IMG/VR virus record: IMGVR_UViG_3300050821_009637
Coordinates: 1 to 20,104 of that record
Source: a virus
DNA: 20,104 nucleotides
Strand: one strand, 5' to 3'
A program made the position numbers and the translations under genes. How positions within the stretch are numbered: the stretch's first letter is position 1; the number at the start of each line of letters is the position of its first letter. Below the pieces are notes generated by a model that searched no databases, had not been told where the DNA came from, and saw only the letters and a list, made by a program, of their open reading frames with translations. Below, piece by piece: positions 3,892 to 17,298 of this stretch.

Positions 3892-3902
3892 TATAGTCGT
3901 CC
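3892..3902 (-). other. Intergenic GGACGACTATA motif, copy 2
   Basis: The minus-strand 11-mer starts at the last base of a TAG stop, and the next ATG lies 11 nt after GGACGAC. This is the same geometry as the copy at 1613. The 11-mer is identical to the copy at 9694. Confidence 0.35.
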
Positions 3903-4690
3903 TAAGCAGGCAAAGCAGCCATTTCCTGCTGCACAGGCTTAGCGGACTCAGCTGCATAGGCTTCCATGGCTGTTTCAATCTCAAGTAAACACTCGGTGGA
4001 CAGCTTCAGCTTGTCCAATGGGATGGTGGTGTTCAATACGCTGTGCGCGTGCTCGATCCTTATCTTCTCGGAATAGCCTCGGTCAGCGTTCTTTGTCCGG
4101 TTCACAAACACTGTTGCGAGAGTATTGCCCTCCTTTACCAACTGGACCAGGCTGGCTTCGAAGAAGTTCTTCTTGTGGTGCTCGATCTCATCGAGTAGGG
4201 CTGGGAAAGAAGGGTCGTTTCTGAGCCACTGCTGCACTACGCCATATGATATGCCAACCTTCTTGCAGGCCTCTGACTGGTTAAAGTTGGCGGACACCAT
4301 AGCATGGATGAATAGCGATTGTCTGACTCTGATTGTTTCTTTTCCCAGGATGGATTCTATGCGCTCAAGTGCGTTGTCGGAATCACTCCACATTTCTATT
4401 CGATCCCACAAATCTCTTAGATTTTCAGGCAGCTGTCCATATACATAATCTTGGAAGGTTTCATTTGACTGGACACGAGCCCTTTGGAGGGCGTATGCTA
4501 TTGCTGGGTATTTGGATGCCCAGATTTTGAAGGTTGCCGGCTGCGTGCCTATGGCCTTTGAAATGGCAAGGTCAGACAGGCCTGTCCGTGCAAGGATATA
4601 CACATCAACAGCGAGGTTGTCTGTATACGCTGGTGACATGATCTTTGCGGGCCTGGCCTTGGGTGTTTTCTTTGACATTGGTTTTGGCAT
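3902..4690 (-). CDS. terS: Probable terminase small subunit (DNA-packaging, helix-turn-helix)
   Basis: Small terminase subunits bind the phage packaging site and feed DNA to the large-subunit motor. This 262-residue protein has a basic N-terminus, one HTH-like segment at about 35-60 (LSDLAISKAIGTQPATFKIWASKYP) and a second at about 128-160 (FNQSEACKKVGISYGVVQQWL). After these comes an EASLVQLVKEGNTLATVF...NADRGYSEK segment typical of TerS proteins of the 'HTH, oligomerisation helix, KxxxRGY' type. The C-terminus is a helical acidic tail. An upstream non-coding stretch of about 700 nt would be a natural place for a pac or cos site. No large subunit lies in the window, so a DNA-binding regulator with the same fold cannot be ruled out. 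Confidence 0.6.
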   Translation of the reverse strand: MPKPMSKKTPKARPAKIMSPAYTDNLAVDVYILARTGLSDLAISKAIGTQPATFKIWASKYPAIAYALQRARVQSNETFQDYVYGQLPENLRDLWDRIEMWSDSDNALERIESILGKETIRVRQSLFIHAMVSANFNQSEACKKVGISYGVVQQWLRNDPSFPALLDEIEHHKKNFFEASLVQLVKEGNTLATVFVNRTKNADRGYSEKIRIEHAHSVLNTTIPLDKLKLSTECLLEIETAMEAYAAESAKPVQQEMAALPA

Positions 4691-4742
4691 ATAGGGCGGT
4701 TGGTGGGTGGAGTCAATACAACAGATGCAACGTGACCTGAAA

Positions 4743-4776
4743 TCACCGGTATCCCATTTGATTGGAACACCGGTGA
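4743..4776 (-). promoter_or_regulatory. Strong 13-bp hairpin upstream of the probable terminase gene
   Basis: The minus-strand sequence folds into a 13-bp stem (TCACCGGTGTTCC with GGGATACCGGTGA, two G-U pairs) and an AATCAAAT loop. Only three T residues follow, so it is a weak terminator candidate. It could be a leader structure or a protein-binding site. The terminase start is about 50 nt downstream. Confidence 0.4.
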
Positions 4777-4872
4777 AGTGCCAGAATCTCGCCCCGGCAT
4801 CCGGCTACCCCACCCGGTAAGAGCCTCGTCAGGCATATCCTAGGCAGGAACTTGGTTATCTAACAAAGTGAG

Positions 4873-4949
4873 TTGGGTTGGACGCTCCAGGGCTGCGACA
4901 TCTTTTCCTTGCGGTGATCGTCAAACAGATAGGATTGCATCCAACCCAA
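4873..4949 (-). ncRNA. Possible structured small RNA (77 nt, closed by 10-bp stem)
   Basis: A perfect 10-bp inverted repeat (TTGGGTTGGA and TCCAACCCAA) closes a 57-nt interior that can form at least one further 6-bp helix (GACATC with GATCGTC, one bulge). The size resembles a tRNA, but there is no T-arm consensus and no CCA, so it is not called as a tRNA. Strand is assumed from the neighbours. Confidence 0.25.
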
Positions 4950-4986
4950 TTTCAAAGGCACCTGATTTGGAAACTGCCGATTCGCT

Positions 4987-5232
4987 TCAACTGAGAGAAC
5001 CCCTCGGCGCGTTCAAGCCACTAACTAGTATGTGTTGCCTTCTATCCAGCATAAGATTCGGACATTCCTCGGCGGTGGTGTGAATCGCTACCTCCTCCAA
5101 GCCCTGTTTCCAGGTCTCAGTGACGTATGGGTGCAAGTAACCCAGCGCCACATATCTGCGGCGCCTTAAGTTGGTCGCTTCTGAAACACCCTTCGCATCA
5201 TTACCGCCAGCTATCATCGCCCGCAACGGCAT
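4987..5232 (-). CDS. Doubtful small ORF, 81 aa
   Basis: This ATG ORF has no recognisable domain and no upstream extension, since a stop lies six codons before the ATG. It has a basic RRRR patch and an aromatic stretch (YVALGYLHPYVTETW). It lies inside the otherwise non-coding stretch after the tmRNA, without the tight overlaps seen for other genes here. It may be a real orphan gene or chance. Confidence 0.25.
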   Translation of the reverse strand: MPLRAMIAGGNDAKGVSEATNLRRRRYVALGYLHPYVTETWKQGLEEVAIHTTAEECPNLMLDRRQHILVSGLNAPRGSLS

Positions 5233-5390
5233 TGAGGAGCCTTCTGCTTATGCCAAACTGGAGCTGTCCCACGGGCGGCCAATTGTGTTGTATAGGAATG
5301 CTGCAGCACTCCCCACTCCTGGTCACTTACCGTAGTCAATAGAGGCAATACCCCCGAGGCTGTGTTACCACAACCGATGACAGCATAAAT

Positions 5391-5690
5391 TGGTGGACCC
5401 GCCGGGATTTGAACCCGGGTGCTCCTATCCTTCTCCCTTCGCATTGCACAGGCTTGTCCTATCATCTGGCGACTAACACCTCCACCAGCAGTTGATGACG
5501 TTCGGCCTCCCCTAACTGCGTCAGGGAGCGAACGGCTCACAGCTTAGGCTGCGAGAGCATGAACTTCCCGCGAGCTGAAGTTCACCGGAATAACATTGTC
5601 TGTTATTGTTTGCCGTCGGTTTATGGACTCATCGACCTCGTCCGCCTGCATCGTTGGGATCCAAACAAGAGTAGAATCCGGAACGGGCCC
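5391..5690 (-). ncRNA. ssrA: tmRNA (transfer-messenger RNA), phage-encoded
   Basis: tmRNA rescues stalled ribosomes by acting first as alanyl-tRNA and then as a short mRNA for a degradation tag. The 5' end GGGCCCG (5684-5690) pairs over 7 bp with CGGGTCC (5395-5401). The only wobble is G3-U70, the alanine identity element. The pair is followed by A73 and an encoded CCA (5391-5393). The T-arm is CCGGG-TTCAAAT-CCCGG (5402-5418). The 5' domain has GGATTCTAC, close to the tmRNA GGATTCGAC signature. GCAGGC near the 5' side can pair with GCCTGT near the 3' side (helix P2). A tag reading frame ends ALAA-UAA, and the UAA sits in the 4-nt loop of an 8-bp hairpin (5536-5555), matching helix H5. CGTTCG/CGAACG and CTCCC/GGGAG helices follow. 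At 300 nt it is shorter than the E. coli tmRNA. Confidence 0.93.
5544..5600 (-). other. tmRNA tag reading frame, predicted 18 aa
   Basis: The frame ending at UAA (5544-5546) reads DNVIPVNFSSREVHALAA if the resume codon is the GAC at 5598-5600. That codon was chosen because AAUAACA before it matches the UAGUC-like determinant position upstream of resume codons. The end (ALAA) is the classic protease-recognised terminus. The exact resume codon is inferred, so the tag could be a few residues longer. Confidence 0.6.
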
Positions 5691-6367: not shown

Positions 6368-6396
6368 GGAGGGCCTGGTGATATGCCAGGCCCTCC
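6368..6396 (-). terminator. Perfect 11-bp hairpin after the AAA+ gene, possible terminator
   Basis: GGAGGGCCTGG (6368-6378) pairs with CCAGGCCCTCC (6386-6396) around a 7-nt loop, between the AAA+ stop at 6404 and the next start at 6355. The minus-strand sequence after it (ACCATTTACC) lacks a T tract. It is either a weak terminator or an RNA processing or stability element. Confidence 0.5.
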
Positions 6397-6403
6397 TTGT
6401 TGG

Positions 6404-8173
6404 TTATCCTTTGCGTCCCTTGGTCTGTTTCAGGTCGTAGTGGGCTTTCGGAAAGTCCACGAATTGGCACACCTTCCGGATGAGATCAGCAATCTCACCC
6501 TTCTTGTATTCCTTTTTCTTGGACACGGACACTGCAAGCTTGAGCAGCGTCTTGATGTTGCGGCCGCTGATCATCGGGAACTCCTTGGCGAGTGCGGCGA
6601 TTTCCTTGGGGAACAAGTCCACCTGGTAGTTGTCCGCAAGGACCTCCCAGATAAGCTTGGACTGATCCTCACTGGGCAGCTCATATTTGATGTGAGCAAT
6701 GCACCGCGACATGATGGCGTCATCAATTGCGGTGGCACGGTTGCTGGTCATGAACAGAACGCCCCTGTACCGTTCCAGCAGGCGCAGGAACACACCGACT
6801 ATGGCGTTCTGTTGGATGTCGTTCTCGCGTGTCCTGGTATACACGTCGGCCTCGTCAAGTAACAGCAACGCGTTCCAGCGCATGGCGCGCTTGAGCACGA
6901 TGATCAGTTCCTTCTCGAGTTGTTCGTGTGTGATACCGAGCTGCGAGCATTGCACCATGTAGATCGGTATCTTGATCTGCTCGGCGAACACCTCCGCGGT
7001 GAGCGTCTTGCCTGTGCCAGGTTCGCCGGTTGACATGACGATGACACCCCCCGTCTTGCCGCTCACGATGTCGTCCATGATGTTGGTGGCCGTTTCGATC
7101 AGGATGCTGACCAGCTCCTTGGTGTCGGATGGCAGGATCAGCTTCTTCTGGATGTCGGGCGCCCACTCATATTCCTGGAGGCAGTTGATGTGGCACTTGA
7201 TGAAGTCGTCCGAGTCGAAGTCGAAGACCTGGAGGTAGGGGTGAACGGGTAGGACAACTGAGTTGTCGTCCTGCTCGTCAACCTCCTCCGCTTCACCGTC
7301 GTCATCATCGTCCTCTCGGTCGACTTTGACGGGTTTGTCCAGGAGGTCGTACTTTTTCCAGAAGGTACCATTGACGGTACCCTTGGCGACTGACTTGTCG
7401 TCCTCCTCGTCCGGTTCCTCGTCACCGTTCCAATCAATGACAACCCGAGTGGGTTTGCCATCCTTGGTCAGCGAACGCACCTTGACAGTCCTGCTACCCC
7501 ACCAGTCGCTCTTGCCCTGAGCTTCGCAGCGACCGAACGCATTGAACTGCTTGCCGGTCAGCTTGTACGTGTCGAAGAACCGCTTGAGCTCGGTTTCATA
7601 TGTGCCGTAGGACTTTTCCTTTTCAGGGAAAAGCTCAGCCTCCTCAAGCAGGTCGGACACGGTGCGGCGTTCAGCTCCAAGCATATCGTCATTCCAATTG
7701 AATGACGCATTGACGACCGCTTCATCCCGGTACGCGCATACCCTGAGCATGCAGTATGCGGGGGTGTAGTATATCTCCCCGGAGTAACCGCGGTGGCGTT
7801 CCTTTTTGTGCCAGGTGATGCTGTTGACATACCATGGTAGAACCTGGCCGTCGTCAGCACGCATGAACAGCAGGTGGTGTGGCAGGCGCCGGACGAACTC
7901 GATCAATGCGGTCTCGAGCTGTACGGAGTTCTTGATCTTCACACTGTCCGGATCGGCACGCAGGTCCTTCCACATATTGAGGCGACGGGACAGGCCACGG
8001 TTATCCGTTTCGGATACCTTGGCGATCTTGTCGACCTCCTCCTTGCTGACCTTGGTGATGTCGAGAGCTATGTTCTGGAAATCATCCCGGTGGATGATCT
8101 CAGGCACGACCTCGAGAGCTCTTTGGCGACCCAGGGCGGCCACGAGCGAATTGACTTTTAGTTTAATGAGCAT
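6404..8173 (-). CDS. AAA+ ATPase, 589 aa
   Basis: The C-terminal third is a complete AAA+ module: Walker A GEPGTGKT (383-390), Walker B LLLLDEAD (436-443), sensor 1 FMTSNR (Asn478), an arginine-finger-like MSR (Arg490) and a sensor-2-like SGRN (about 536-539). The first about 370 residues are a phage-specific N-domain with no recognised family. It carries two acidic low-complexity patches (about 250-260 and 287-303). AAA+ proteins of this classic clade remodel proteins or complexes, so it may disassemble replication, recombination or capsid complexes. The substrate is unknown. The leader AAATAACCACAC has no Shine-Dalgarno. A perfect hairpin follows the gene. Assignment as an ATPase is certain; the role is not. 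Confidence 0.93.
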   Translation of the reverse strand: MLIKLKVNSLVAALGRQRALEVVPEIIHRDDFQNIALDITKVSKEEVDKIAKVSETDNRGLSRRLNMWKDLRADPDSVKIKNSVQLETALIEFVRRLPHHLLFMRADDGQVLPWYVNSITWHKKERHRGYSGEIYYTPAYCMLRVCAYRDEAVVNASFNWNDDMLGAERRTVSDLLEEAELFPEKEKSYGTYETELKRFFDTYKLTGKQFNAFGRCEAQGKSDWWGSRTVKVRSLTKDGKPTRVVIDWNGDEEPDEEDDKSVAKGTVNGTFWKKYDLLDKPVKVDREDDDDDGEAEEVDEQDDNSVVLPVHPYLQVFDFDSDDFIKCHINCLQEYEWAPDIQKKLILPSDTKELVSILIETATNIMDDIVSGKTGGVIVMSTGEPGTGKTLTAEVFAEQIKIPIYMVQCSQLGITHEQLEKELIIVLKRAMRWNALLLLDEADVYTRTRENDIQQNAIVGVFLRLLERYRGVLFMTSNRATAIDDAIMSRCIAHIKYELPSEDQSKLIWEVLADNYQVDLFPKEIAALAKEFPMISGRNIKTLLKLAVSVSKKKEYKKGEIADLIRKVCQFVDFPKAHYDLKQTKGRKG

Positions 8174-8179
8174 GTGTGG

Positions 8180-8275
8180 TTATTTTGATTTTTGGATTTT
8201 GTGGATCACCGGGAGCAGCACGACAGCGCCGAACCAGGCGAACCACCAGGCGATGTATGGGTTCAGATGCGGCAC
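8180..8275 (-). CDS. Putative membrane micropeptide, 31 aa
   Basis: A GTG at 8275 is preceded by GGAGG with four nt spacing. It opens a 31-residue frame that ends at TAA just before the AAA+ gene and overlaps the end of the upstream gene by 13 nt. The peptide is nearly all hydrophobic (YIAWWFAWFGAVVLLPVI) with a Lys-rich C-terminus, consistent with one membrane span. It could be a chance frame, since it has no ATG, but it fills the only gap here and has an unusually good ribosome-binding site. Confidence 0.45.
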   Translation of the reverse strand: MPHLNPYIAWWFAWFGAVVLLPVIHKIQKSK

Positions 8276-8757
8276 GTGTCCTCCAGGTTCGTGCTGATGT
8301 ACCTGCCGTTGATTCTCAACTTCAGCACACCGTGTTCGCTGCGGGCATGGGTGATGCGCGCTGCCTTGGTATCCTCCGTTGTGTTGCTGTTCTCAAACGA
8401 CCAGTACAACGCACGATGGCGCAGCGCCTGCCGGATCCTCGCCGCGCGTGTCACTGTTGACTCGAGCGACCGCAGCTTGCTTGAGGGGCGCTCAGGCGGT
8501 GGTGAAGCCGGACCGGTACGCGGACGCAGGTGGGGTGGTTGCTTCTCAGGGAAGCTAACACCGCCGCCGTACTTCCGTACCAGGTTCATTTCGTGAAACG
8601 ACCGGCGCACGGCACGGTCGTCCACGGGTTTTATAGGATCATCAATGACGATGTACGATGCTCTGTTTCCTTCGATGACTGGAGGCTTGGCGGGTTGTGA
8701 TCCGCTCAAGGCCTTCCGTTTCGCTAGCTTTTTCTGCTGTCGTAGGTTTAGGCTCAT
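8263..8757 (-). CDS. Hypothetical basic protein with TerL-like DDPIKP motif, 164 aa
   Basis: A basic N-terminus (LRQQKKLAKRKAL) leads into SYIVIDDPIKPVDDRAVRR (about 34-52). This resembles the 'iiiDDPikp.da' signature in the nuclease/ATPase junction of large terminase subunits. The rest is not terminase-like: a Pro-rich linker (PEKQPPHLRPRTGPASPPPERP) and a C-terminal Arg-rich region. At 164 residues it is far too short for a large terminase and has no Walker A. It could be a chance match or a relic fragment. The leader is A-rich (AACAACAAAACAAAAAC) without Shine-Dalgarno. Confidence 0.7.
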   Translation of the reverse strand: MSLNLRQQKKLAKRKALSGSQPAKPPVIEGNRASYIVIDDPIKPVDDRAVRRSFHEMNLVRKYGGGVSFPEKQPPHLRPRTGPASPPPERPSSKLRSLESTVTRAARIRQALRHRALYWSFENSNTTEDTKAARITHARSEHGVLKLRINGRYISTNLEDTCRI

Positions 8758-8773
8758 GTTTTTGTTTTGTTGT

Positions 8774-8986
8774 TTACTGACACTGACGAAATTTGAAAAG
8801 CTTGGGATGATCCAGCATCATCCTTATTAGTAGCCGGACAGGACCGGGTATGGGATTACCGTGCTCCCAACCACGAACAGACTGCTCAGTTGTGCCGAGT
8901 ATCTCAGCAAGTCGCTTTTGGGTTATGTCGTAACGCTCCCTGATGTCCAGTAATCGGTATCGGAATTTATCGTTGGTATTTTTCAT
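8774..8986 (-). CDS. XRE/Cro-family helix-turn-helix regulator, 70 aa
   Basis: Residues about 10-50 match the classic XRE fold: a first helix (YRLLDIRERYD), then ITQKRLAEILGTTEQSVRGWEHGNPIP. The TQKRLAEILG and TEQSVRGWE pair is the recognition HTH. A C-terminal helix (VRLLIRMMLDHPKLF) may dimerise. The layout is also seen in antitoxin-type regulators, but no partner toxin is recognised beside it. Its ATG overlaps the stop of the upstream gene (ATGA), so it is expressed with it. It probably represses a phage promoter; the target is unknown. Confidence 0.85.
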   Translation of the reverse strand: MKNTNDKFRYRLLDIRERYDITQKRLAEILGTTEQSVRGWEHGNPIPGPVRLLIRMMLDHPKLFKFRQCQ

Positions 8987-9489
8987 GTGACGACGCGCGG
9001 CGCAAGGCCGGGGTTCCTCACCGTTTCAAGTAGGGCAATGCACTCAGCGACCAGATCAGCCGGTTGCAGGTCCTGGCGCTTCAGGTGTATCGTGCATCCC
9101 ATCCGGTAATTGTAGCACAGCAGTTCGCCACCACTCTTGTCGAGGCGGTCCACGATCAGCACGCGGTCCTCACCGCATTGCACGTTCATGTACCGGTTGG
9201 CAACCTGCTTCACAATGACGAGTGGCTTCACGTTCTTTGCGGGTTTGGCTGGGGCTGGTGCGTCGTCATCGTCGTCTAACAGGCCCTTGGGTGGCCCCTT
9301 GCGTGCAGCCATGTCGATATGCGGGGGTCCTACCCTCCGAGTTGGTGCGATGATTGGGTTGTCATCATCGTCATCCAGCAGTCCTTTCGGGGGACCCTTA
9401 GGCCGGTTCTTGGGCCTATGAAGCACAATCGCCGCATTTACGCGGCGCATTGCAATACGATCCTTTTGAGTGATTTGCTTTTTGTTCAT
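8983..9489 (-). CDS. Hypothetical protein with twin KGPPKGLLDDDDD motifs, 168 aa
   Basis: The start at 9489 (MNKKQITQKD) was chosen because it lies one nt after the upstream stop. A 212-residue reading from 9621 would overlap that gene almost completely. A basic N-terminus is followed by two copies of KGPPKGLLDDDDD (about 31-43 and 64-76), each in a Pro-rich linker. The C-terminal half (about 85-165) looks globular with beta strands (KPLVIVKQV, RVLIVDRLD) and a Cys-containing CYNYRMGC. The twin motif may be a short peptide docked by a partner. Acidic runs also occur in the SSB and the AAA+ ATPase. Function unknown. ATGA overlap with the XRE gene. Confidence 0.75.
   Translation of the reverse strand: MNKKQITQKDRIAMRRVNAAIVLHRPKNRPKGPPKGLLDDDDDNPIIAPTRRVGPPHIDMAARKGPPKGLLDDDDDAPAPAKPAKNVKPLVIVKQVANRYMNVQCGEDRVLIVDRLDKSGGELLCYNYRMGCTIHLKRQDLQPADLVAECIALLETVRNPGLAPRVVT
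9258..9402. repeat. Direct repeat encoding the twin poly-Asp motifs
   Basis: Two 39-nt stretches (about 9262-9300 and 9364-9402) encode the same 13-residue motif within one gene. They differ at several synonymous positions, which indicates an old internal duplication kept by selection on the protein. Confidence 0.6.
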
Positions 9490-9490
9490 A

Positions 9491-9682
9491 TTACCATTTC
9501 GGTTCCGCTGCTGTGCGTTCCTTGTTCGACCGTAGATCGAACGTCTGTGAGTTGGGTTGATCGGGGTTTTGCCTGGGCGCGTACACGTTGCAGCGTGCAC
9601 CTCCGTTAAGGAGGAACACACGGTGAACGATGGGAGCGGGACCCTCGTCCTCCTCCCAAAATGTTGAGCGTTTGTTTTTCAT
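9491..9682 (-). CDS. Hypothetical protein, 63 aa
   Basis: This short polar protein (MKNKRSTFWEEDEG, then VHRVFLLNGGARCNVYAP) has no recognised domain and no membrane segment. It ends one nt before the next start, and its leader carries the GGACGACTATA motif. Reality is supported mainly by this packing and by an ATG following the shared leader motif. Confidence 0.6.
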   Translation of the reverse strand: MKNKRSTFWEEDEGPAPIVHRVFLLNGGARCNVYAPRQNPDQPNSQTFDLRSNKERTAAEPKW

Positions 9683-9693
9683 GTGATCAGTTG

Positions 9694-9704
9694 TATAGTC
9701 GTCC
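9694..9704 (-). other. Intergenic GGACGACTATA motif, copy 3
   Basis: Identical over 11 nt to the copy at 3892. GGACGAC lies 15 nt before the next ATG, and 3 nt after the TGA of the upstream gene. Confidence 0.35.
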
Positions 9705-9707
9705 GTT

Positions 9708-10097
9708 TCAGTTGATTACCCGGATGAGCGTGCCTTGGTAGTTGCTTTCAGTGATGACGGTGGGATCCTCGCGGTCGTTGTTGTCACCCTTGGTGACCCA
9801 CTTGCCAAACATGTTCTTCCGGACAATGCGGTGGATGACGAAATCGCATCGCACGTCATTATGTCCTGGAGGGCAAGGAAACCAACCGGGGTTGGCGTAT
9901 TGAACAATCATTCCGACCCTTAGGTCCTTGAACGGAATGCGAACCAGCCACACGTCCTTGCCCGCAAGGGGTCCCATCGAGTGTGTGTAGTTCCAAATAT
10001 GCGCTGTGTAGATTTCCCAATCAGCGCGCTGTGTGGTCGCGGCATGGAGGGAGGTCGTCAGGATGACGGCGAGTATTGCTGTTTTGAATGCGTTCAT
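9708..10097 (-). CDS. Exported S26B-like (signal-peptidase fold) protein, 129 aa
   Basis: A signal peptide is clear: MNAFKTAILAVILTTSLHA with likely cleavage near residue 19-20. The mature part has a Ser-Met-x-Pro motif (HSMGPL, Ser40). It also has a GMIVQY strand, VIHRIV (His89) and TKGDNN (about 102-107) followed by QGTLIRVI. This order matches the S26 signal peptidase fold. The VHR-type His, where bacterial enzymes have Lys, fits the S26B Ser-His form known from archaea, eukaryotes and some Gram-positives. Two Cys (75 and 84) could form a disulfide outside the cytoplasm. Most S26 proteins are membrane-anchored, whereas this one appears secreted and short. It may cleave phage or host envelope proteins, or be a non-catalytic relative. 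Confidence 0.65.
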   Translation of the reverse strand: MNAFKTAILAVILTTSLHAATTQRADWEIYTAHIWNYTHSMGPLAGKDVWLVRIPFKDLRVGMIVQYANPGWFPCPPGHNDVRCDFVIHRIVRKNMFGKWVTKGDNNDREDPTVITESNYQGTLIRVIN

Positions 10098-10128
10098 GGT
10101 TTTTCCATTAAACGTGGTTGATGTTGTT

Positions 10129-10380
10129 TTACAGGTATGCCGCCTGCTTGGATTGAATCGCTAACAGGGTTGAGTTGGCCTCGTCCTTGGTGGGATATGA
10201 CCCGTACCGAATTTGCCTTGCTTTGGTTCCCTTTGTCAGGGACCGAAATTCGCTTGGGACTCGGACTTCAAATTCGTTCGAGTCCACTTGTTCAATGTAC
10301 GCCTTGCGGGCGCATAGTTCGATATAAGCGCGCTTTGAAAGGCGCTCATATTTGATTCCGTCAATGATTTCGATTTTCAT
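10129..10380 (-). CDS. Hypothetical protein, AP2/integrase-arm-like pattern, 83 aa
   Basis: The C-terminal half (FEVRVPSEF..., then ARQIRYGSYPTKDEANSTLLAIQSKQ) shows beta strands followed by an 'f.T.deA..a...' helix. This pattern is shared by small AP2-like and integrase-arm DNA-binding domains. The match is weak and the DNA-binding idea is inference. ATGA overlap with the upstream gene supports it as a real gene. Confidence 0.65.
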   Translation of the reverse strand: MKIEIIDGIKYERLSKRAYIELCARKAYIEQVDSNEFEVRVPSEFRSLTKGTKARQIRYGSYPTKDEANSTLLAIQSKQAAYL

Positions 10381-10586
10381 GCTGTTTTGATATGTGGGTT
10401 GCTGTCAGTGATTGCTTCCGATCCAATGCTCAGGCGTGTGCCAGCGTACGGTTGATCCTCTGCGACGATGCACGCAACGCGTTCCGGACCTCCCCGGGAC
10501 GCCCTACGTGTCGTCTTGTAAACGATGACCTTGAGCCCCCGAAATGAGGGACTCGCGAGCTTCGTGTCCTTTTTGATCCAGCTCAT
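10377..10586 (-). CDS. Hypothetical protein, 69 aa
   Basis: The start at 10586 (MSWIKKDTK) overlaps the upstream stop as ATGA; a reading from 10619 would overlap the neighbour further. It is a basic, beta-rich small protein (GLKVIVYKTTRRASRGG, RVACIVAEDQ) with no recognised domain. The gene is coupled on both sides. Confidence 0.6.
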   Translation of the reverse strand: MSWIKKDTKLASPSFRGLKVIVYKTTRRASRGGPERVACIVAEDQPYAGTRLSIGSEAITDSNPHIKTA

Positions 10587-10861
10587 GTGGTGTGTATGTT
10601 GGCCACGGTACGGCCGCAAAGGCGTTGATACCGTGACGTTAGGATCCTGGGTTGATATGCGCTCGCATTGATCGTGCGGGTCTTGTGTCCCCGGGTGACT
10701 GTCAGGGTTTCGCGGATCGTGAAGGATTGATCACCCTTCATTCCGATTTCGCGTCCAGGTTGTTCCTCGCAACGGCGGGTGCCGTGGCACTTGGGGGACG
10801 CACCGTAAATGTCCTCCCATATTTCCTCGAAGAACCCGAGTTGCTCGAATTGTGAGTCCAT
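10583..10861 (-). CDS. Hypothetical protein, 92 aa
   Basis: The start at 10861 (MDSQFEQLGFFEEIWEDIYG) is preceded by an A/C-rich leader, CACAAAAACAAACATC. A longer reading from 10978 would run into the upstream gene. The N-terminal helix is acidic, followed by a Cys pair (KCHGTRRCEEQ) and a beta region (FTIRETLTVTRGHKTRTI). No function recognised. Confidence 0.6.
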   Translation of the reverse strand: MDSQFEQLGFFEEIWEDIYGASPKCHGTRRCEEQPGREIGMKGDQSFTIRETLTVTRGHKTRTINASAYQPRILTSRYQRLCGRTVANIHTT

Positions 10862-10889
10862 GATGTTTGTTTTTGTGGGTTGTGGGTGA

Positions 10890-11207
10890 TCAGCACATGA
10901 GATCGTAATGGGGATCCCCCGGGCGCGGGCAAAATGGCTTCCAAGCCTCACGGTGTCCGACCTTTTCGATTTGAACAATTCCCCATTGTGCGTCCGACGT
11001 ACCGTCTTCCTTTAGCTCCGTAGGATCAAATGCCCCTGAACCCGTGGGAAGGGGTGCGCGTTCATGCGAACATCCGGTAAACGTGACAAGGCCGTTGTCA
11101 CGGTAATTTATGTCAAATACCTGACATGATCTGACTTCCGTTCCCTTCCGCATCCTCGTGGTCATCAGGAGGACGTCACCAATTTTGTATGATTCCAGTG
11201 TATTCAT
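10890..11207 (-). CDS. Hypothetical beta-rich protein, 105 aa
   Basis: The N-terminal region (YKIGDVLLMTTRM..., then CQVFDINYRDNGLVTFTGC) suggests a small beta-barrel of the SH3/KOW kind, but the match is only to a general pattern. The rest is Pro/Gly-rich with scattered Cys and no known motif. The leader ACCCACAAAACCACATCAA lacks a Shine-Dalgarno. Confidence 0.65.
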   Translation of the reverse strand: MNTLESYKIGDVLLMTTRMRKGTEVRSCQVFDINYRDNGLVTFTGCSHERAPLPTGSGAFDPTELKEDGTSDAQWGIVQIEKVGHREAWKPFCPRPGDPHYDLMC

Positions 11208-11231
11208 TTGATGTGGTTTTGTGGGTTATGT

Positions 11232-11423
11232 TCAGTACAGGGGAAGGAATGATGCACCGTCAATCTTGTGACGGCGGGCAAAGGCGCGTGCATCCTTCTT
11301 TGTGTTGAACACACTAGCCTTGTCGATTGACGACGTAAACTCAGGATTCATTGTCCACGTCAGACGCATGAAGAATTGTGTTCCCCTCGCGTTTTGAATT
11401 ACGTATGATGTGCGATGTTTCAT
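11232..11423 (-). CDS. Small conserved-looking phage protein, 63 aa
   Basis: The start at 11423 (MKHRTSYVI) was chosen over 11471, which would run back toward the preceding terminator; the shorter form matches the usual size of such proteins. It has two beta strands (SYVIQNARGTQFF), a DKASVFNTKKDARAFARRHKI segment with a short strand then a helix, and a GASFLPLY end. Small proteins with this 'a.vF.tk.dAr.fa' ending are frequent in phages (family memory, not a search). The leader ends TGGAACAACC before ATG, nearly the same as the TGGAAAAACC before the gene at 10097. It is the first gene after the terminator at 11504-11531. Confidence 0.65.
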   Translation of the reverse strand: MKHRTSYVIQNARGTQFFMRLTWTMNPEFTSSIDKASVFNTKKDARAFARRHKIDGASFLPLY

Positions 11424-11472
11424 GGTTGTTCCATTTGTTTGGTTATCGTTGAGTAACATGCTGATAATCATG

Positions 11473-11488
11473 TTCCGGATACACGGAA
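11473..11488. promoter_or_regulatory. Dyad in the leader after the terminator
   Basis: TTCCG-GATACA-CGGAA is a perfect 5-bp dyad about 50 nt before the start at 11423. A promoter for the small-gene unit should lie here, because the terminator closes the unit upstream. A TTGCGA (-35-like) lies beside it but no good -10 is seen. An operator is possible but unproven. Confidence 0.2.
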
Positions 11489-11503
11489 TCGCAATAGCAG
11501 ACC

Positions 11504-11531
11504 CAAAAAAAGGACGGAATAAACCGTCCTT
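11504..11531 (-). terminator. Intrinsic terminator closing the replication block
   Basis: On the minus strand AAGGACGG pairs over 8 bp with CCGTCCTT around a 6-nt TTTATT loop. The stem runs straight into a further six T residues (11504-11509). It lies 30 nt after the nuclease gene and ends the long replication/recombination unit. Confidence 0.92.
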
Positions 11532-11560
11532 AGGTACCTACCAATCAACGACTTACGTTT

Positions 11561-12136
11561 TTACATCCGGAATGCGTCAGGACTGACAGCTTTTAGGAAC
11601 TCACTCAATTGAACCGCACAAACCGTCTGACGTGTGCGGGGCCCCTCTGGCCATCGAACAATGACACGCATCCGGAGGTACAGGTCACAATCCGCCTGCA
11701 GATGATGGCCCTTTTCCCGCAGGTAATGGTCCAAGTGGATCGAAAGGAACACAAGGGCTTCACGCTTGTCCCTGCGTGTGATCAATAGCCAATGCGGGGT
11801 TCCTGCGTGTTGAGCTGCCCGTTCAGCCTGCATGATGAACTGCTCAAACTCGGTTGCTTTGTGCCTGTAGCATCGGTCGAACACATCTGCGAAGGTGGTT
11901 TTGCGGTAGCCACGTTTCAGTTCGATTGTCACACACTTGAGCAGGGGTTGTCCTATGGGATCAACAGCAGCGATGTCACCTGCATGACCGAAGGTTTTCT
12001 TGCCACTTTGCCAACGCACAGTAGCACGGCCACCACTGTTCGATGATCGCCAGAACACATCATCTCGCTTGCCACCTGTCCACCACTTGGACAAGGTCAC
12101 ACACATCAGCCGTTCAAATGATGATCCTTTACCCAT
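11561..12136 (-). CDS. PD-(D/E)XK nuclease, Holliday-junction-resolvase-like, 191 aa
   Basis: From the ATG at 12136 the N-terminus matches the archaeal Hjc-type nuclease layout. It has GKGSSFER (Glu8), VFWRSSNSGGRAT (ligand-like RSSNSGG at about 30-37), HAGDIAAVD (Asp54), and VTIELKRG (Glu72 and Lys74, the ExK pair). The C-terminal about 100 residues are phage-specific. Such enzymes cut branched DNA or trim ends, which fits a place behind the recombination genes and just before the terminator. A start at 12184 would overlap the upstream gene by 56 nt, whereas 12136 overlaps by 8 nt. A restriction-like nuclease of the same fold is the main alternative. Confidence 0.75.
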   Translation of the reverse strand: MGKGSSFERLMCVTLSKWWTGGKRDDVFWRSSNSGGRATVRWQSGKKTFGHAGDIAAVDPIGQPLLKCVTIELKRGYRKTTFADVFDRCYRHKATEFEQFIMQAERAAQHAGTPHWLLITRRDKREALVFLSIHLDHYLREKGHHLQADCDLYLRMRVIVRWPEGPRTRQTVCAVQLSEFLKAVSPDAFRM

Positions 12137-12323
12137 GTTCGTGCTCAAATTTAACACTTCGGACTTCAACAGAGAATCCGTCATGGAATTTCACGATGTC
12201 ACCAGGCCTAGGAATACCAGCAAGTCCCACCCAGTAGAAAAAGTCGGGATAACCCTTCTGACTGTTCGTCATAAGCACCTTGAACCGATTGCCCGTTGAA
12301 TTAATTGGTATTCGTTGAAGCAC
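12129..12323 (-). CDS. Hypothetical beta-rich protein, 64 aa
   Basis: A GTG at 12323 with AAGGA five nt upstream is the preferred start. A GTG at 12341 would overlap the upstream gene by 41 nt. The protein has FKVLMTNS, FFYWVGLAG, GDIVKFHDGFSVEVRSVKF strands, suggesting a small SH3-like barrel. No known function. It overlaps the nuclease gene by 8 nt, so the two may be coupled. Confidence 0.6.
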   Translation of the reverse strand: MLQRIPINSTGNRFKVLMTNSQKGYPDFFYWVGLAGIPRPGDIVKFHDGFSVEVRSVKFEHEHG

Positions 12324-12678
12324 GGCGTTCCTTTTTGTCACGTTCAGTTAACCAATCGAAGTAATCCAATTTCGCTCGGCGCATCTCAGGCCATTTCCTT
12401 TTCACCTGCTGCATTGATCGCCCTAGGATTTTGCCGATGTCTGCGGGTGACCGTCCACATTGGACCTTCATGTATTGCAGGATGGATTCTTCACGCAGAG
12501 TCCAATCCCCATCATCGAACCCACCCCAGTCGGGTTTGAACGGACGCTTGCCCTTTAAGATGTCATCAATGGTGTTCCACAATTCGCTGAATTCAACCTT
12601 GAGTGTCTTAGCGATGAATTGCTTTGGACATCCCCTGATGTAAAGCCAAACCGCCGATCTAATGTCTTCTTCTTTCAC
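12301..12678 (-). CDS. Myb/SANT-like HTH protein, 125 aa
   Basis: The start is a GTG at 12678, overlapping the end of the 5'-nuclease gene by 20 nt. There are two helical domains. The first, at about 5-40, runs from IRSAVWLYIRGCPKQFIAKTL to a second helix (ELWNTIDDIL). The second, at about 58-100, has WTLREESILQYM, SPADIGKILGRSMQQVKRKW, the tryptophan-spaced three-helix pattern of Myb/SANT-like domains. It probably binds DNA. It may regulate the local unit or assist the nuclease genes on either side; neither is shown. Confidence 0.65.
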   Translation of the reverse strand: MKEEDIRSAVWLYIRGCPKQFIAKTLKVEFSELWNTIDDILKGKRPFKPDWGGFDDGDWTLREESILQYMKVQCGRSPADIGKILGRSMQQVKRKWPEMRRAKLDYFDWLTERDKKERRASTNTN

Positions 12679-13546
12679 GGGATGAATACGGGGTTGAGTT
12701 TCTCAATGATCGGATGCCGAGCAGTTCGCACACGTCCTGCCAACCTGTTTGCGTGACCTTGTCGTCAACGAGGTTGAACACCGGGGTGCCCTTCAATGGC
12801 AATTCGACCAAGGGTCGGTTGCGATGCACGATTGACCTGCCACGGTCGCTACGGATCGTCTGATAGGCTTTGCTGTCCTCCTTCAACCCACCATTCAGGT
12901 ATTTGATTGCGGTGATCTCACCGACTCCACCAACTCCAGGTATCTCATCGGTCGAGCAGCCTGCAATTGCCTTGACGTGCGCCCAGTGGCGGGGGCTGAT
13001 GCCGAACTTCCGTTTGAATGATTGCAGGGTGGTCATGACCGGAGGCACTTTGAAGTTGCCCGGCTTCCATACTGACACGTTGAACCGTATGAGCTGGAAA
13101 AGGTCGCGGTCAGCGCTGACGATGATCCCGGTGTCATCATCGCTCAAGTTTTCGGATACCGATGCAATGATGTCGTCCGCTTCATATCCCTTCTCGTACA
13201 GGACGTTCTTATATCCAATACGCGGCAGGTAATCCATCATCAGGAGGTCAACCTGGTGCGTGAGCTGTTGACGAGCAGTCTTTTCCTCGTTGCTCATCAT
13301 GTCGATTGACTGGGGACCATGCCGGTTGAGTTTGTACCCCCGGTAGATTCGTTGCCTTAGGGGTGCCCCATGATCGAAGCAAAACACCAGGCGGTCACAC
13401 ATAAATCGATCCTGCATCCCCGCCAGGTCGCGTAGAAACCCGTAGATCACCCCTGTCTTGATGCCATCATATGACAGCCTGCCCATCGCGTAGAAATTGC
13501 GATAGCACAGGAAGTTTACGTCTAGGATAAGGAACGTGCGCTCCAT
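12659..13546 (-). CDS. 5'-3' exonuclease / flap endonuclease (FEN/PolI N-domain type), 295 aa
   Basis: These enzymes remove RNA primers and 5' flaps during replication. All key acidic clusters are present: LILDVNF (Asp9), FCFDHG (Asp58), YEADDII (Glu122, Asp124, Asp125) and SADRDLFQL (Asp146, Asp148). Asp200 follows, in GCSTDEIPGVGGVGEITA (about 197-212). That is the helix-hairpin-helix of the family. The length is typical of phage stand-alone forms such as T5 D15, and the fold corresponds to the N-domain of Pol I. The split phage polymerase elsewhere in the block lacks this domain in the part visible, so this gene may supply it. The ATG overlaps the methyltransferase gene by 25 nt. Confidence 0.92.
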   Translation of the reverse strand: MERTFLILDVNFLCYRNFYAMGRLSYDGIKTGVIYGFLRDLAGMQDRFMCDRLVFCFDHGAPLRQRIYRGYKLNRHGPQSIDMMSNEEKTARQQLTHQVDLLMMDYLPRIGYKNVLYEKGYEADDIIASVSENLSDDDTGIIVSADRDLFQLIRFNVSVWKPGNFKVPPVMTTLQSFKRKFGISPRHWAHVKAIAGCSTDEIPGVGGVGEITAIKYLNGGLKEDSKAYQTIRSDRGRSIVHRNRPLVELPLKGTPVFNLVDDKVTQTGWQDVCELLGIRSLRNSTPYSSRERRRH

Positions 13547-14196
13547 TTGTATTCCCTGAGTCGCTCGTTGGCCATGGCAGCCACCTTGGGATCAATCTCG
13601 CTACCGAAGTAAAATCGGTTCTCACAAGCGCAGGCCAATGCAGTCGTGCCTGACCCCATGAATGGATCATAAACAGTTTGACCGGGGCTGGTGAAGTTTC
13701 GGACATGGCGTTGCACGATGCCCAATGGAATGCCGTATCCATATCCATTGTACTTCGTGTGCTCGTCCGTGAACACATCGTAACGCCAATTCTCAATTTG
13801 CGTCTGCTTGGGTTTGTTCGCCCTAGGACAAAACGTCATCAGGTGAAGGAAGTTCAGCCTGTAGAGGTTTATCTTGTTCGACTTGTGCCAAATCTTGTAC
13901 GCGACCACGCGCCAATCAGCCCGCTCAAACGAACGGATGATCCACGAGTGCTTGGGAATGATTCCACCACCAGCACGCCTGTCAGTGATTCCCACGGTAA
14001 TCAATGGCGCCAGTCGCCTGCAATGTGCTAGGACGTTCTCAGTCACGAACACCTGGTAAGTGCTGCAGTCATCCTCGTTGGTCGGGTCGAGCTTCAGCTC
14101 CTCGAAGTCAGGTGGAACGGTGAAGATGTAGTTCACATCCTGAAGCGTCAGCATTGTGACGCAGCAATCCTCTGCAGCGATGGTGTTCGGTTTCAT
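13522..14196 (-). CDS. N4/N6-type DNA methyltransferase, 224 aa, atypical motif IV
   Basis: The C-terminal half is diagnostic: IPLGIVQRHVRNF leading to VYDPFMGSGTTA (motif I, about 175-186) and GSEID (motif II, Glu200). This is the SAM-binding part of the beta-type (motif IV first, motif I last) amino-methyltransferases. The expected catalytic (D/N/S)PP(Y/F) lies near the N-terminus, but here it reads VPPDF (27-31), where Val replaces the usual acidic/Ser residue and Asp the aromatic. The enzyme may be altered in target or inactive. It could protect phage DNA from restriction. ATGA overlap with the RecA-like gene. Confidence 0.85.
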   Translation of the reverse strand: MKPNTIAAEDCCVTMLTLQDVNYIFTVPPDFEELKLDPTNEDDCSTYQVFVTENVLAHCRRLAPLITVGITDRRAGGGIIPKHSWIIRSFERADWRVVAYKIWHKSNKINLYRLNFLHLMTFCPRANKPKQTQIENWRYDVFTDEHTKYNGYGYGIPLGIVQRHVRNFTSPGQTVYDPFMGSGTTALACACENRFYFGSEIDPKVAAMANERLREYKWSARSLS

Positions 14197-15284
14197 ATGT
14201 AGCGGCTCTTGCGGTGGACTTCACACGCTTCTTCGATGTCGTTCCACACTTCACCGACAATGACACGGAGGTCTCGCTCCATGTTCTTGTCCTCAATGTA
14301 TGTGATCAGGTCGCCCCGGGATCCTTTGAATCGGAGTTCCTTCGCATGGATTTCACCACCCTCGTTTTTCCAATGCTTCTCCTCAAGGAGGTAGTCGATG
14401 CACGCGCCGATGTCATCAAAGCCAAAGCTGTGGTAAATCGGGAGGGTGACCGAACGGTCCTTGCCCGTGAAGCGGTTCTTTTTGATTTTGACATGGCAAA
14501 GCATTCCCACGGTGCGAGCCTTACCACGCACCGTCATCTTGATTTTACCTTTCACCGATGACCACATCTCGAGCATGGCATAGAACTTCAGCGCCCGGCC
14601 ACCTGCCCGGGTCTTTGGCTCAAACTGAGCACCAAAGCCCATGTTGTCACGGGTCTGCGAGATCATTATGAGGATGCTGTCGGTGTCGCGTAGATCGATG
14701 CAGGCTGCACGCAGATTGCGGCTGTGTACCTGTGCCTTTGAATCGGTCATGGTGCCCGCCGTCTCGGTGTCGTCAGCGATGGATTTGCGCTTCTCCTTTT
14801 GCTTCTTCTTTTCGGCATCGCTGGACAGGGCGTTCTCGGAGTCGATCACGTAGATAACCGACCGACCCTTTTTCTGGGCGCGTTGCATTGACAAGTGGAG
14901 GTGATAATAAAACTCCTCGACCGTCGTGCTGTAAACAGGCTGTCGATCCTCGTCGTATGCGGGTGGCTTTATCCGACTGGCGATCTTCTCGCCAAAGAAC
15001 TTGTCGAACATCAGCGCACCGTTTTCCACGTTGTCAAAGATCAGATCGTAGTCATCGAAGCGCTTATTGATAGCAGCCTCAGCAAAGCACGTGCCAGCAA
15101 GTACTGTCTTGCCTGACGTGGAGTCACCCACAACCAGGTAGAATGCCCCACGCGTAAAAGCTCCGAACGGTCGTCCGGAGCACGCAAGGTTGAGCAACGT
15201 ATTGCCCGAACTGAGCAGTCCCTTTGACGGCTTTTCAACCGTCTTTTCGGTGAGGGCATCTTTGATTTCATCTGTTTCTTTCAT
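14193..15284 (-). CDS. RecA/UvsX-like recombinase, 363 aa
   Basis: The protein has Walker A GDSTSGKT (53-60), Walker B VIYVIDS (about 143-149), a conserved Gln in MISQTRDNMG (about 207-216), and the L2-like GGRALKFYA (228-236). HVKIKKNRFTGK (about 264-275) corresponds to the RecA 'kvvKNK' strand. RecA-type filaments carry out strand exchange and repair and can prime replication. The region at 155-190 is a highly charged insertion (KKKQKEKRKSIADD) that replaces the usual L1 neighbourhood. A 6-bp GC-rich hairpin lies just upstream in the leader. It sits beside the SSB and UvsY-like genes, the usual partners of a phage RecA. Confidence 0.9.
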   Translation of the reverse strand: MKETDEIKDALTEKTVEKPSKGLLSSGNTLLNLACSGRPFGAFTRGAFYLVVGDSTSGKTVLAGTCFAEAAINKRFDDYDLIFDNVENGALMFDKFFGEKIASRIKPPAYDEDRQPVYSTTVEEFYYHLHLSMQRAQKKGRSVIYVIDSENALSSDAEKKKQKEKRKSIADDTETAGTMTDSKAQVHSRNLRAACIDLRDTDSILIMISQTRDNMGFGAQFEPKTRAGGRALKFYAMLEMWSSVKGKIKMTVRGKARTVGMLCHVKIKKNRFTGKDRSVTLPIYHSFGFDDIGACIDYLLEEKHWKNEGGEIHAKELRFKGSRGDLITYIEDKNMERDLRVIVGEVWNDIEEACEVHRKSRYI

Positions 15285-15295
15285 TGTAAATTGGT

Positions 15296-15315
15296 GGGGA
15301 GGTTACGTACTCCCC
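15296..15315 (-). promoter_or_regulatory. Leader hairpin before the recombinase gene
   Basis: GGGGAG pairs with CTCCCC around an 8-nt loop, ending about 11 nt before the ATG at 15284. It is short and could be chance or a translation-control structure. There is no T tract. Confidence 0.25.
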
Positions 15316-15372
15316 CTGAGTGATTAGCTCAACGTCCTGGTTGTGGTGGATTGCACCGCCCCAGCAACTTGA

Positions 15373-15948
15373 TCAGTCTTCCAACGAGCGACGCTTGCGC
15401 GGGGCCTCGTCGTCATCATCCCGTTTGCGGCGTGGCGCGTCATCGTCATCGGATGATTTCTTCTTGGGGGTCTCGTCACCCCAGTCATCATCGTCATCCT
15501 TCTTTTTCTTCGGGGCTTCGTCATCGTCGTCCCGACGTTTCTTTGGACGCTCGTCATCGTCCTCAGAAGCCTTCTTCTTGGGACGCTCGTCGTCATCGTC
15601 CAAGGCCCGCTTTTTCTTGGGGGCCTCGTCGTCATCATCGGCCTTCTTGCGAGGACGATCCTCTTCATCCTCGTCACGCTTGCGGCGCGGTGGCTCGTCG
15701 TCATCATCGAGCGCCTTTTTCTTGGGACGCTCATCATCGTCGTCCGAGGACTTCTTCTTGGGCTTTGCGTCCCAGTCGTCGTCATCGTCGGCCTTCTTCT
15801 TCGGCCTGTCCTCGTCGTCATCAGACGACTTCTTCTTTGGACGGTCTTCGTCCTCGTCGGCAGCCTTCTTTTTCGGCCGCTCGTCCTCATCCTCGTCCCG
15901 GCGCTTCTTCGGACGATCCTCGTCGTCCTCCTTTTTCTTGTCGTCGCC
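15373..15948. repeat. Degenerate in-frame repeat region encoding the SSB tail
   Basis: About 15 imperfect units of roughly 30-45 nt, rich in GTCGTCATC and CTTCTTCTT on the plus strand, encode Asp/Glu and Lys/Arg runs. Codons vary between units, so they are not recent exact copies. Such a tract is prone to slippage and length change. Confidence 0.85.
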
Positions 15949-16665
15949 ATCGACCTGGAGGAGGATCGCCTTCAACTTGTCGTATGACAGGAGACGGATC
16001 AGGTCGTCCAGGCAATGCGCCTTGTCAACGATTGAGTCCTTGTACGTCTCTTTCCGTTCCTTGAGGTCGATGGCCGTCACTTCACAGAACTCATTCTGCC
16101 CCATCTTCTTTTTGACGACTGTGAGCTTGAGGGTCTTCCCTTCGACTGGGTCGTGGAAGTTTTCCCAACCCTCGTCGTCCTCGTCGGCACTGATGCGTGC
16201 GTCCAGGAGCTTGCCGAACAGGTGATAGGACAGCTCCATCAACTGGATGCCCGAATCCCTGTCCTTGCAGTCGATGACGTTGAACATCTGCCGTTCCTTT
16301 GGTGCCATCCCCTTTATCTGGTCGGGGTCGGCATCCGGGTCCCGTGCCATCTTGCCACGGTACTCACAGATCGGGCACCGTTCCTTGTTTGTCTTGTGCA
16401 GACAGACGTAGGAGTCCCCACCGGGACCGATGTCCCTGTGGATGTAGAACGTGCGCTCGTAGTGCAGCGCACCCTTGTCGGCAAAAGGATTCCCCTCGCC
16501 GACTTCATACGGGATGATGTCAATATACATGACACCCTCCTTGAGCTTGAGGCGCTTGACGCCATCAGGCACTTTGATCGAAGTGGACTCGAAGCCACTC
16601 GTGTGTTTCTCCGCTCGGTCTCGTGCAGACGTGACCCGGCGGCGTTCCCTATCTTGTGAGCTCAT
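15373..16665 (-). CDS. ssb: gp32-like ssDNA-binding protein with long charged repeat tail, 430 aa
   Basis: The globular part (about 30-240) matches phage gp32-type SSBs. A zinc site is formed by Cys88, His90, Cys97 and Cys100 (CLHKTNKERCPIC). It is flanked by HYERTFYIHRDIGPGGDSYV and by QMFNVID...YHLFGKLL, ENFHDPVEGKTLKLTVV. It would coat single-stranded DNA at forks and recombination sites. From about residue 240 to the end lies a tail of about 190 residues built from some 15 units of 10-16 residues, each an Asp/Glu run, a Pro, then three or four Lys/Arg (DDDDERPKKKA). Ordinary SSB tails are short, acidic and end in a hydrophobic tip, and this ends RRSLED. The leader is A-rich without Shine-Dalgarno. 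Confidence 0.85.
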   Translation of the reverse strand: MSSQDRERRRVTSARDRAEKHTSGFESTSIKVPDGVKRLKLKEGVMYIDIIPYEVGEGNPFADKGALHYERTFYIHRDIGPGGDSYVCLHKTNKERCPICEYRGKMARDPDADPDQIKGMAPKERQMFNVIDCKDRDSGIQLMELSYHLFGKLLDARISADEDDEGWENFHDPVEGKTLKLTVVKKKMGQNEFCEVTAIDLKERKETYKDSIVDKAHCLDDLIRLLSYDKLKAILLQVDGDDKKKEDDEDRPKKRRDEDEDERPKKKAADEDEDRPKKKSSDDDEDRPKKKADDDDDWDAKPKKKSSDDDDERPKKKALDDDDEPPRRKRDEDEEDRPRKKADDDDEAPKKKRALDDDDERPKKKASEDDDERPKKRRDDDDEAPKKKKDDDDDWGDETPKKKSSDDDDAPRRKRDDDDEAPRKRRSLED

Positions 16666-16686
16666 ATTTCGTTTTATGGTTTTGGT

Positions 16687-16812
16687 TTATTCCTTGTCAG
16701 CGAACATCTTGTTTGCCCTGAGGAATCCCAGTCGGATTGCCTTGGTGCAGAAATAGCAGGTGATCGGCGCAGCGATCATCGTAGCGAGCATTTTGAAATA
16801 GTACGGATCCAT
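16687..16812 (-). CDS. Small membrane-type protein, 41 aa
   Basis: The ATG at 16812 directly follows the stop of the UvsY-like gene (TAAATG). The peptide has a hydrophobic stretch at about 5-22 (YFKMLATMIAAPITCYFC) and a basic C-terminus (KAIRLGFLRANKMFADKE), consistent with one membrane-associated helix. It lies between recombination genes, where small uncharacterised peptides are common. Function unknown. Confidence 0.6.
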   Translation of the reverse strand: MDPYYFKMLATMIAAPITCYFCTKAIRLGFLRANKMFADKE

Positions 16813-17286: not shown

Positions 17287-17298
17287 GTTGTGTGTATA

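Follow-up and report, generated by a model that had tools for sequence, protein, structure and literature searches.

A phage-encoded one-piece tmRNA with a changed SmpB-facing core

Introduction

tmRNA rescues stalled ribosomes and tags unfinished proteins. Complete tmRNAs are encoded by mycobacteriophages Bxz1 and Wildcat, Bacillus phage G, huge phages and phage Melnitz. Ten phage tmRNAs were listed in 2014 (PMC4131195), and in 2021 data tmRNA was present in 402 of 18,146 phage genomes (PMC9004378). The sequence-only reading of the DNA analyzed here had called phage tmRNAs known but rare; known they are, and rare only in a relative sense, at about 2.3% of phage genomes in that one survey (PMC9004378). 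In huge phages, tmRNA has been found together with SmpB (PMC7162821).

The contact between tmRNA and SmpB has been described by cryo-EM, in which G19 stacks on the SmpB Leu90-92 patch, while A15, U17 and A334 form the pocket for SmpB Trp122 (PMC8363625). The passage of PMC8363625 that cites Hanawa-Suetsugu 2002 reports that the G19C change prevents SmpB binding and abolishes trans-translation in E. coli. G19 is taken to be highly conserved and necessary for SmpB to bind, yet several divergent phage tmRNAs whose architecture is otherwise intact carry U19, and U19 comes with a second change two bases ahead of the T-arm. Either the SmpB rule is looser than thought, or phages use SmpB differently.

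We analyzed a complete phage-encoded tmRNA in a 20,104-base IMG/VR virus record, the whole of which is called the window. It resembles bacterial one-piece ssrA in its G3-U70 acceptor, T-arm, P2, PK1, resume signal, ALAA end, H5 stop and PK2. It differs from it in having U for G19, C for G333, no PK3 or PK4, an 18-codon tag frame with its own hairpin, and a length of 300 nt compared to 353-397 nt. The Melnitz tmRNA is two-piece, whereas that of the window is one-piece; some huge phages encode SmpB, whereas none was recognized in the 20-kb window. Mycobacteriophage DS6A carries a TLD-only RNA, which is likewise a phage-borne tRNA-like domain but lacks the mRNA-like part that is complete in the window (PMC4131195).

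Results

Identification of the tmRNA gene

Infernal matched the Rfam tmRNA model RF00023 to positions 5391-5690 on the minus strand over its full length (model positions 1-374 of 374), with 87.8 bits and an E-value of 3.3e-33; the gathering score of this model is 47 bits. No second locus in the window attained any Rfam gathering score. The sequence-only reading had proposed a complete one-piece tmRNA within a phage gene cluster, and the end-to-end match and the co-oriented phage genes around it bear this out. Of the two programs it had named for this region, Infernal gave the good score expected, while ARAGORN reported nothing (no tmRNA and no tRNA in the window). With the same Infernal method, seven bacterial tmRNAs scored 113-198 bits and other phage tmRNAs about 84-109 bits. 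The two-piece (permuted) model RF04321, which that reading had also put forward for comparison, gave a partial, chance-level match of 17.4 bits against a threshold of 47, so the two-piece form was rejected and the one-piece form stands. A TLD-only form was rejected as well, the mRNA-like domain being complete. Minimum-energy folding of the window RNA gave a weak single-strand signal (z -1.75), so the evidence for a tmRNA comes from the covariance model and from comparison. These results support the presence of a phage-encoded tmRNA, a known kind of phage gene.

Structure of the window tmRNA

The RNA is 300 nt long, nt 1-300 running from window position 5690 down to 5391, and its helices were verified base by base. 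Its parts, in window coordinates, were as follows.

5391-5690, minus strand: complete one-piece tmRNA gene (ssrA); RF00023 87.8 bits, missed by ARAGORN
5684-5690, minus strand: acceptor stem, 5' strand GGGCCCG, with G3 of G3-U70; 7 of 7 pairs
5673-5673, minus strand: U at the E. coli G19 position (SmpB contact); read from sequence, role of G19 from PMC8363625
5644-5671, minus strand: P2 helix, 5' strand; 9 + 4 + 6 pairs with internal loops
5615-5643, minus strand: pseudoknot PK1, GGAC/GUCC and GUCG/CGAC (4 + 4); by pairing, stem 1 at nt 48-49 in all compared
5544-5600, minus strand: tag frame from resume codon GAC (RNA nt 91) to UAA, DNVIPVNFSSREVHALAA; UAACA signal, stop in the H5 loop
5559-5585, minus strand: extra 9-bp hairpin in the tag frame (GUGAACUUC/GAAGUUCAU); overlaps a 24-nt insertion relative to the Rfam model
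5536-5555, minus strand: helix H5, 8 bp, loop CUAA with the stop codon; by pairing, same layout in other phage tmRNAs
5488-5534, minus strand: pseudoknot PK2, stem 1 of 6 + 6 bp, stem 2 GCAGUU/AACUGC (6 of 6); by pairing, stem 2 covaries in other phages
5467-5487, minus strand: 5-bp hairpin at the expected PK3/PK4 place; by pairing
5422-5453, minus strand: P2 helix, 3' strand; distal 6 bp covary across phage tmRNAs
5420-5421, minus strand: A334 equivalent kept (5420) and C replacing G333 (5421); read from sequence
5402-5418, minus strand: T-arm CCGGG-UUCAAAU-CCCGG; 5 of 5 pairs
5391-5401, minus strand: acceptor stem, 3' strand CGGGUCC, discriminator A and encoded CCA; by pairing

The tRNA-like domain contained the elements that had been noticed from the letters, namely the 7-bp acceptor with G3-U70, the encoded CCA and the T-arm (7 of 7 and 5 of 5 pairs). 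The P2 helix and the H5 hairpin, whose 4-nt loop holds UAA after ALAA, were likewise found when checked base by base, and PK1 was present in addition. Two further P2 pairs, C38-G250 and G39-C249, were weakly suggested by eye only. Between PK2 and the 3' strand of P2 the helix check recognized neither PK3 nor PK4, only the 5-bp hairpin; the number of pseudoknots varies among bacterial groups (PMC1168896).

The full tag reads (A)DNVIPVNFSSREVHALAA, and its frame of 18 codons ends H-A-L-A-A-stop, with UAA inside the H5 loop; the commonest tmRNA tag length is 10 (PMC11915505). The resume signal UAACA precedes GAC and, aligned with UAGUC of E. coli, has A at -4. This A is thought to set the frame, and ACA as the -1 triplet was 100% active in an E. 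coli assay (PMC2481249). GAC was assigned as the resume codon because of the A at -4 and the permitted triplet ACA, and the stop in the H5 loop agrees with this assignment.

Changes in the SmpB-contact core

The 5' core of the window RNA is GGATTCTAC, compared to GGATTCGAC in bacteria, and the changed base corresponds to E. coli G19, which is replaced by U. A second core change replaces G333 by C, while A15, U17, C18, G332, A334 and C335 are kept. The E. coli numbering was obtained by counting along the E. coli sequence and agrees with A15, U17, C18, G19 and A334 of PMC8363625. The window thus lacks G19 and G333 of the canonical core, a conserved trait that RF00023 membership does not require, and has the Trp122-pocket bases A15, U17 and A334, as read from its sequence (GG-A-U-U-C and GC-A-C). 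The sequence-only reading had taken GGATTCTAC for the usual 5' signature; it is instead a deviation from the Rfam consensus GGaUUCGAC, and that reading overlooked that a base within the signature it called is the changed SmpB-contact position. Bacterial controls (L130-L136) had GAC, with GGAC before the T-arm, whereas the window and the phage tmRNAs had UAC and GCAC. The contact of the window tmRNA with SmpB is probably different from that of the host tmRNA, with the Trp122 pocket kept.

Distribution of the changed core

Viral contigs were scanned for the 5' core GGATTCTAC in acceptor context, a pattern that selects the 5' change and leaves the 3' change unselected. This gave 22 stretches, 20 of them with an Rfam tmRNA. 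Independent scans used the 3' end alone and then recovered the 5' end via acceptor pairing; many 3'-end matches had no recovered 5' end, some being tRNAs, two-piece genes or cut contigs. Unique sequences at all loci comprised 13 with U19/C333, 2 with G19/C333, 27 with G19/G333 and none with U19/G333. When the 5'-selected loci were left out, the counts in the same order were 5, 2, 27 and 0 (Fisher p 8e-5, an optimistic value because the sequences are related). U19 was accompanied by C333 in all 13 unique sequences; by tag and sequence these sorted into some five families, which share about 50% identity with the window RNA, and the phage families compared are few and related. C333 also occurred with G19, in the one-piece L167 and L172 and the two-piece L150, and is therefore not diagnostic by itself.

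The bacterial survey covered 3' ends with sampled end sequence in two phyla. Among 150 Pseudomonadota genomes, the GGAC 3' end was found in 90 and GCAC in none; in 199 Bacillota genomes, a pattern allowing GGAC or GCAC matched 110 places, all of which (110/110) were GGAC. For bacterial nt 19, the Rfam consensus GGaUUCGAC has G.

Architecture of the U19 phage tmRNAs

The window RNA was compared to IMG/VR families with the tags AKRNLAK... and GI...LAA/FAA (such as L005, L003 and L008) and to L010 and L181. They have the UAC/GCAC core, the position of the PK1 stem and the H5 stop loop in common with it, and several also the register of PK2 stem 2. They differ in sequence (about 50% identity), in length (most 355-404 nt) and in having more structure after PK2. 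Several family members lie in tRNA arrays, whereas the window is without tRNA.

Covariation was counted informally, by script and eye. Every sequence compared had the six distal pairs of P2, with substitutions in both strands (for example GCAGGC/GCCUGU, GCAAGC/GCUUGU, GCAUGC/GCAUGU, GCGCGC/GCGCGU and GCUAUC/GAUAGU), the script having chosen a neighboring register in L164, L193 and L214. PK1 stem 1 started at nt 48-49 in every compared sequence with varied pairs, and almost all of them had the stop codon within or at a hairpin loop. PK2 stem 2 was found in the register of the window in several (GCAGUU/AACUGC, GCAGAU/AUCUGC, ACAGAU/AUCUGU and CUCGCU/AGCGAG), and the script found none in the remaining compared sequences. 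Compensatory changes were also present in the acceptor and T-arm across phage tmRNAs about 50% identical. The sequence-only reading had made its claim depend on conservation of H5 and P2 in related phages; both recur with compensatory changes, as do PK1 and PK2.

The comparison included 16 complete one-piece tmRNAs with U19, and ARAGORN missed five of them (the window, L020, L024, L181 and L197), all of which were found with Rfam. Phage tmRNA counts based on ARAGORN are therefore likely to be low, and what is new here is a phage tmRNA member that ARAGORN does not see.

Genomic context

All recognized genes of the window share the minus strand with the tmRNA, which sits among phage replication and packaging genes; the order is family A DNA polymerase, clamp loader, gp32-like SSB, UvsX-like recombinase, methyltransferase piece, 5'-3' exonuclease, PDDEXK nuclease, AAA ATPase, tmRNA and terminase-small-like protein. 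The two context genes beside the tmRNA were as follows.

6404-8173, minus strand: AAA ATPase, 589 aa, relative of the PBS1/AR9 'ATP-dependent protease'
3902-4690, minus strand: terminase-small-subunit-like protein; PHROG 309, E 2e-8

The GC content is 0.56 in the tmRNA and 0.534 in the comparison. No integrase was recognized among the window ORFs scanned, no tRNA was found in the window by ARAGORN, and no smpB was recognized in the scanned ORFs of this 20-kb window, an incomplete genome. A second contig of the same population is 100% identical over 6533-18173 and ends at 6533 without covering the tmRNA, so that the tmRNA segment is supported by one contig alone.

No close match to the window was present in 50,697 phage records, and blastn of its tmRNA against these records matched only a 25-31-nt stretch of the T-arm/3' end. 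Neither a terminase-small search nor a tag-pattern search of viral contigs revealed relatives, and no close relative of the window phage bearing a tmRNA was found. A search for the host with a tag-like pattern produced 19 matches among 84,980 bacterial and archaeal genomes, none of them a tmRNA; blastn of the window tmRNA against 398 Pseudomonadota genomes gave no match, a result that is not informative as to the host.

Among 27 contigs searched for smpB, none with U19 was positive (sizes up to 225 kb, genomes incomplete). The two matches were in the L162 and L175 contigs, both with two-piece tmRNAs.

A partnership between the AAA ATPase and the tmRNA was rejected: a one-piece tmRNA was present in none of four isolate phages, and none of 22 IMG/VR records, one of which is from the population of the window, exceeded the RF00023 cut-off. 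Two of these 22 AAA-bearing records carry two-piece tmRNAs. The PBS1/AR9 homologues of the AAA ATPase are annotated as FtsH-like protease, and the window protein has no Pfam protease domain.

Discussion

The window RNA is probably a functional phage-encoded one-piece tmRNA of a class with a changed SmpB-facing core that uses host SmpB, judging from its sequence and the comparisons. The molecule is otherwise intact and conserved, and this is most simply explained if U19/C333 tmRNAs use host SmpB via a modified contact. Once expressed, the phage tmRNA would be trimmed by host RNases and charged by host AlaRS via G3-U70, and host SmpB and EF-Tu would bring it to ribosomes stalled on broken mRNA in infection. 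Translation would restart at GAC, append A-DNVIPVNFSSREVHALAA and end at the H5 UAA, and the ALAA end would direct the tagged product to a host protease for degradation, presumably to the benefit of the phage. The sequence-only reading had suggested that the RNA might stand in for a host tmRNA damaged by the infection or mark proteins with a peptide specific to the phage. Several points count against a functional tmRNA. In E. coli, loss of SmpB binding is reported for G19C (PMC8363625, where it cites Hanawa-Suetsugu 2002), and by analogy a U19 tmRNA might work less well, or not at all, with ordinary SmpB. Neither the window nor the U19 contigs searched had a recognized smpB, no close relative of the phage with a tmRNA was found, and the tag-frame hairpin and the missing PK3 and PK4 are departures.

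The location of U19/C333 at the SmpB contact would also suit a competitor RNA, which is charged or binds the ribosome or EF-Tu but interacts only weakly with SmpB, and thereby dampens host trans-translation or sequesters one of its components, as has been proposed for the DS6A TLD-only RNA (PMC4131195). However, the window RNA keeps a full mRNA-like domain with frame signal, ALAA end, H5 stop loop, PK1 and PK2, and the mRNA-like parts covary in other U19 phage tmRNAs, although a decoy would need none of them. A decoy is conceivable, but it leaves this conserved part unexplained, and we consider it unlikely.

It is less probable still that the contig is chimeric and the gene a host ssrA, or that a prophage captured a host ssrA through imprecise excision, even though tmRNA genes are common integration sites (PMC12595487) and the only other contig of the population stops at 6533, short of the tmRNA. 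The gene is complete and mid-contig, flanked by phage genes of the same strand; its GC is similar (0.56 against 0.534), the scanned ORFs contain no recognized integrase, and its core agrees with that of other phage tmRNAs and with none of the roughly 200 sampled bacterial 3' ends. A decaying, non-functional copy, to which the missing PK3/PK4, the ARAGORN miss and the changed core could be attributed, has the slightest probability of the three, as the acceptor, T-arm, H5 and PK2 stem 2 are without a broken pair and the tag frame is open with a proper end. Moreover, pseudoknot number varies (PMC1168896), and replacing pseudoknots need not cost activity (PMC2481249).

With a functional tmRNA as the preferred reading, we tentatively suggest, as one possibility that is itself rather doubtful, that the U19/C333 class was acquired or evolved once and was spread or kept across unrelated large phages, where a different contact with host SmpB might take over host trans-translation or escape interference with it. 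No description of the paired U19/C333 signature was found in the openly searchable literature, which is weak evidence of novelty.

Other observations

Genes are densely packed elsewhere in the array, but the roughly 700 bases at 4691-5390, between the terminase-small-like gene and the tmRNA, contain neither a convincing ORF nor a match to an RNA family. A strong 13-pair hairpin (GGAGGGCCTGG...CCAGGCCCTCC) at 6368-6396 immediately follows the AAA gene at its 3' end; it scored as terminator-like on the plus strand, whereas the genes are all on the minus strand, which the symmetric stem may serve. Two-piece tmRNAs (RF04321) were seen in large phage contigs with the AAA ATPase of the window, at 1272-1594 of L110 and 1449-2000 of L113, with the ARAGORN tags VTAPKAMAMAAAA and ANTVDTGRKTAKVLAFPAPVVAAPMVAMAA. 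In L162 and L175 (IMGVR_UViG_3300028585_000513 and IMGVR_UViG_3300007790_000278), the two-piece tmRNA, with the tag ANDNSFR[VM]AA, and smpB (L336, L337) are a candidate phage-encoded pair. Pistol ribozymes were located at L003 3996-4062, L018 7823-7889, L004 9453-9520, L008 11548-11599, L015 12393-12452 and L147 11486-11545. They are inside or next to tRNA arrays in large phages, and most of these phages have a U19 tmRNA as well.
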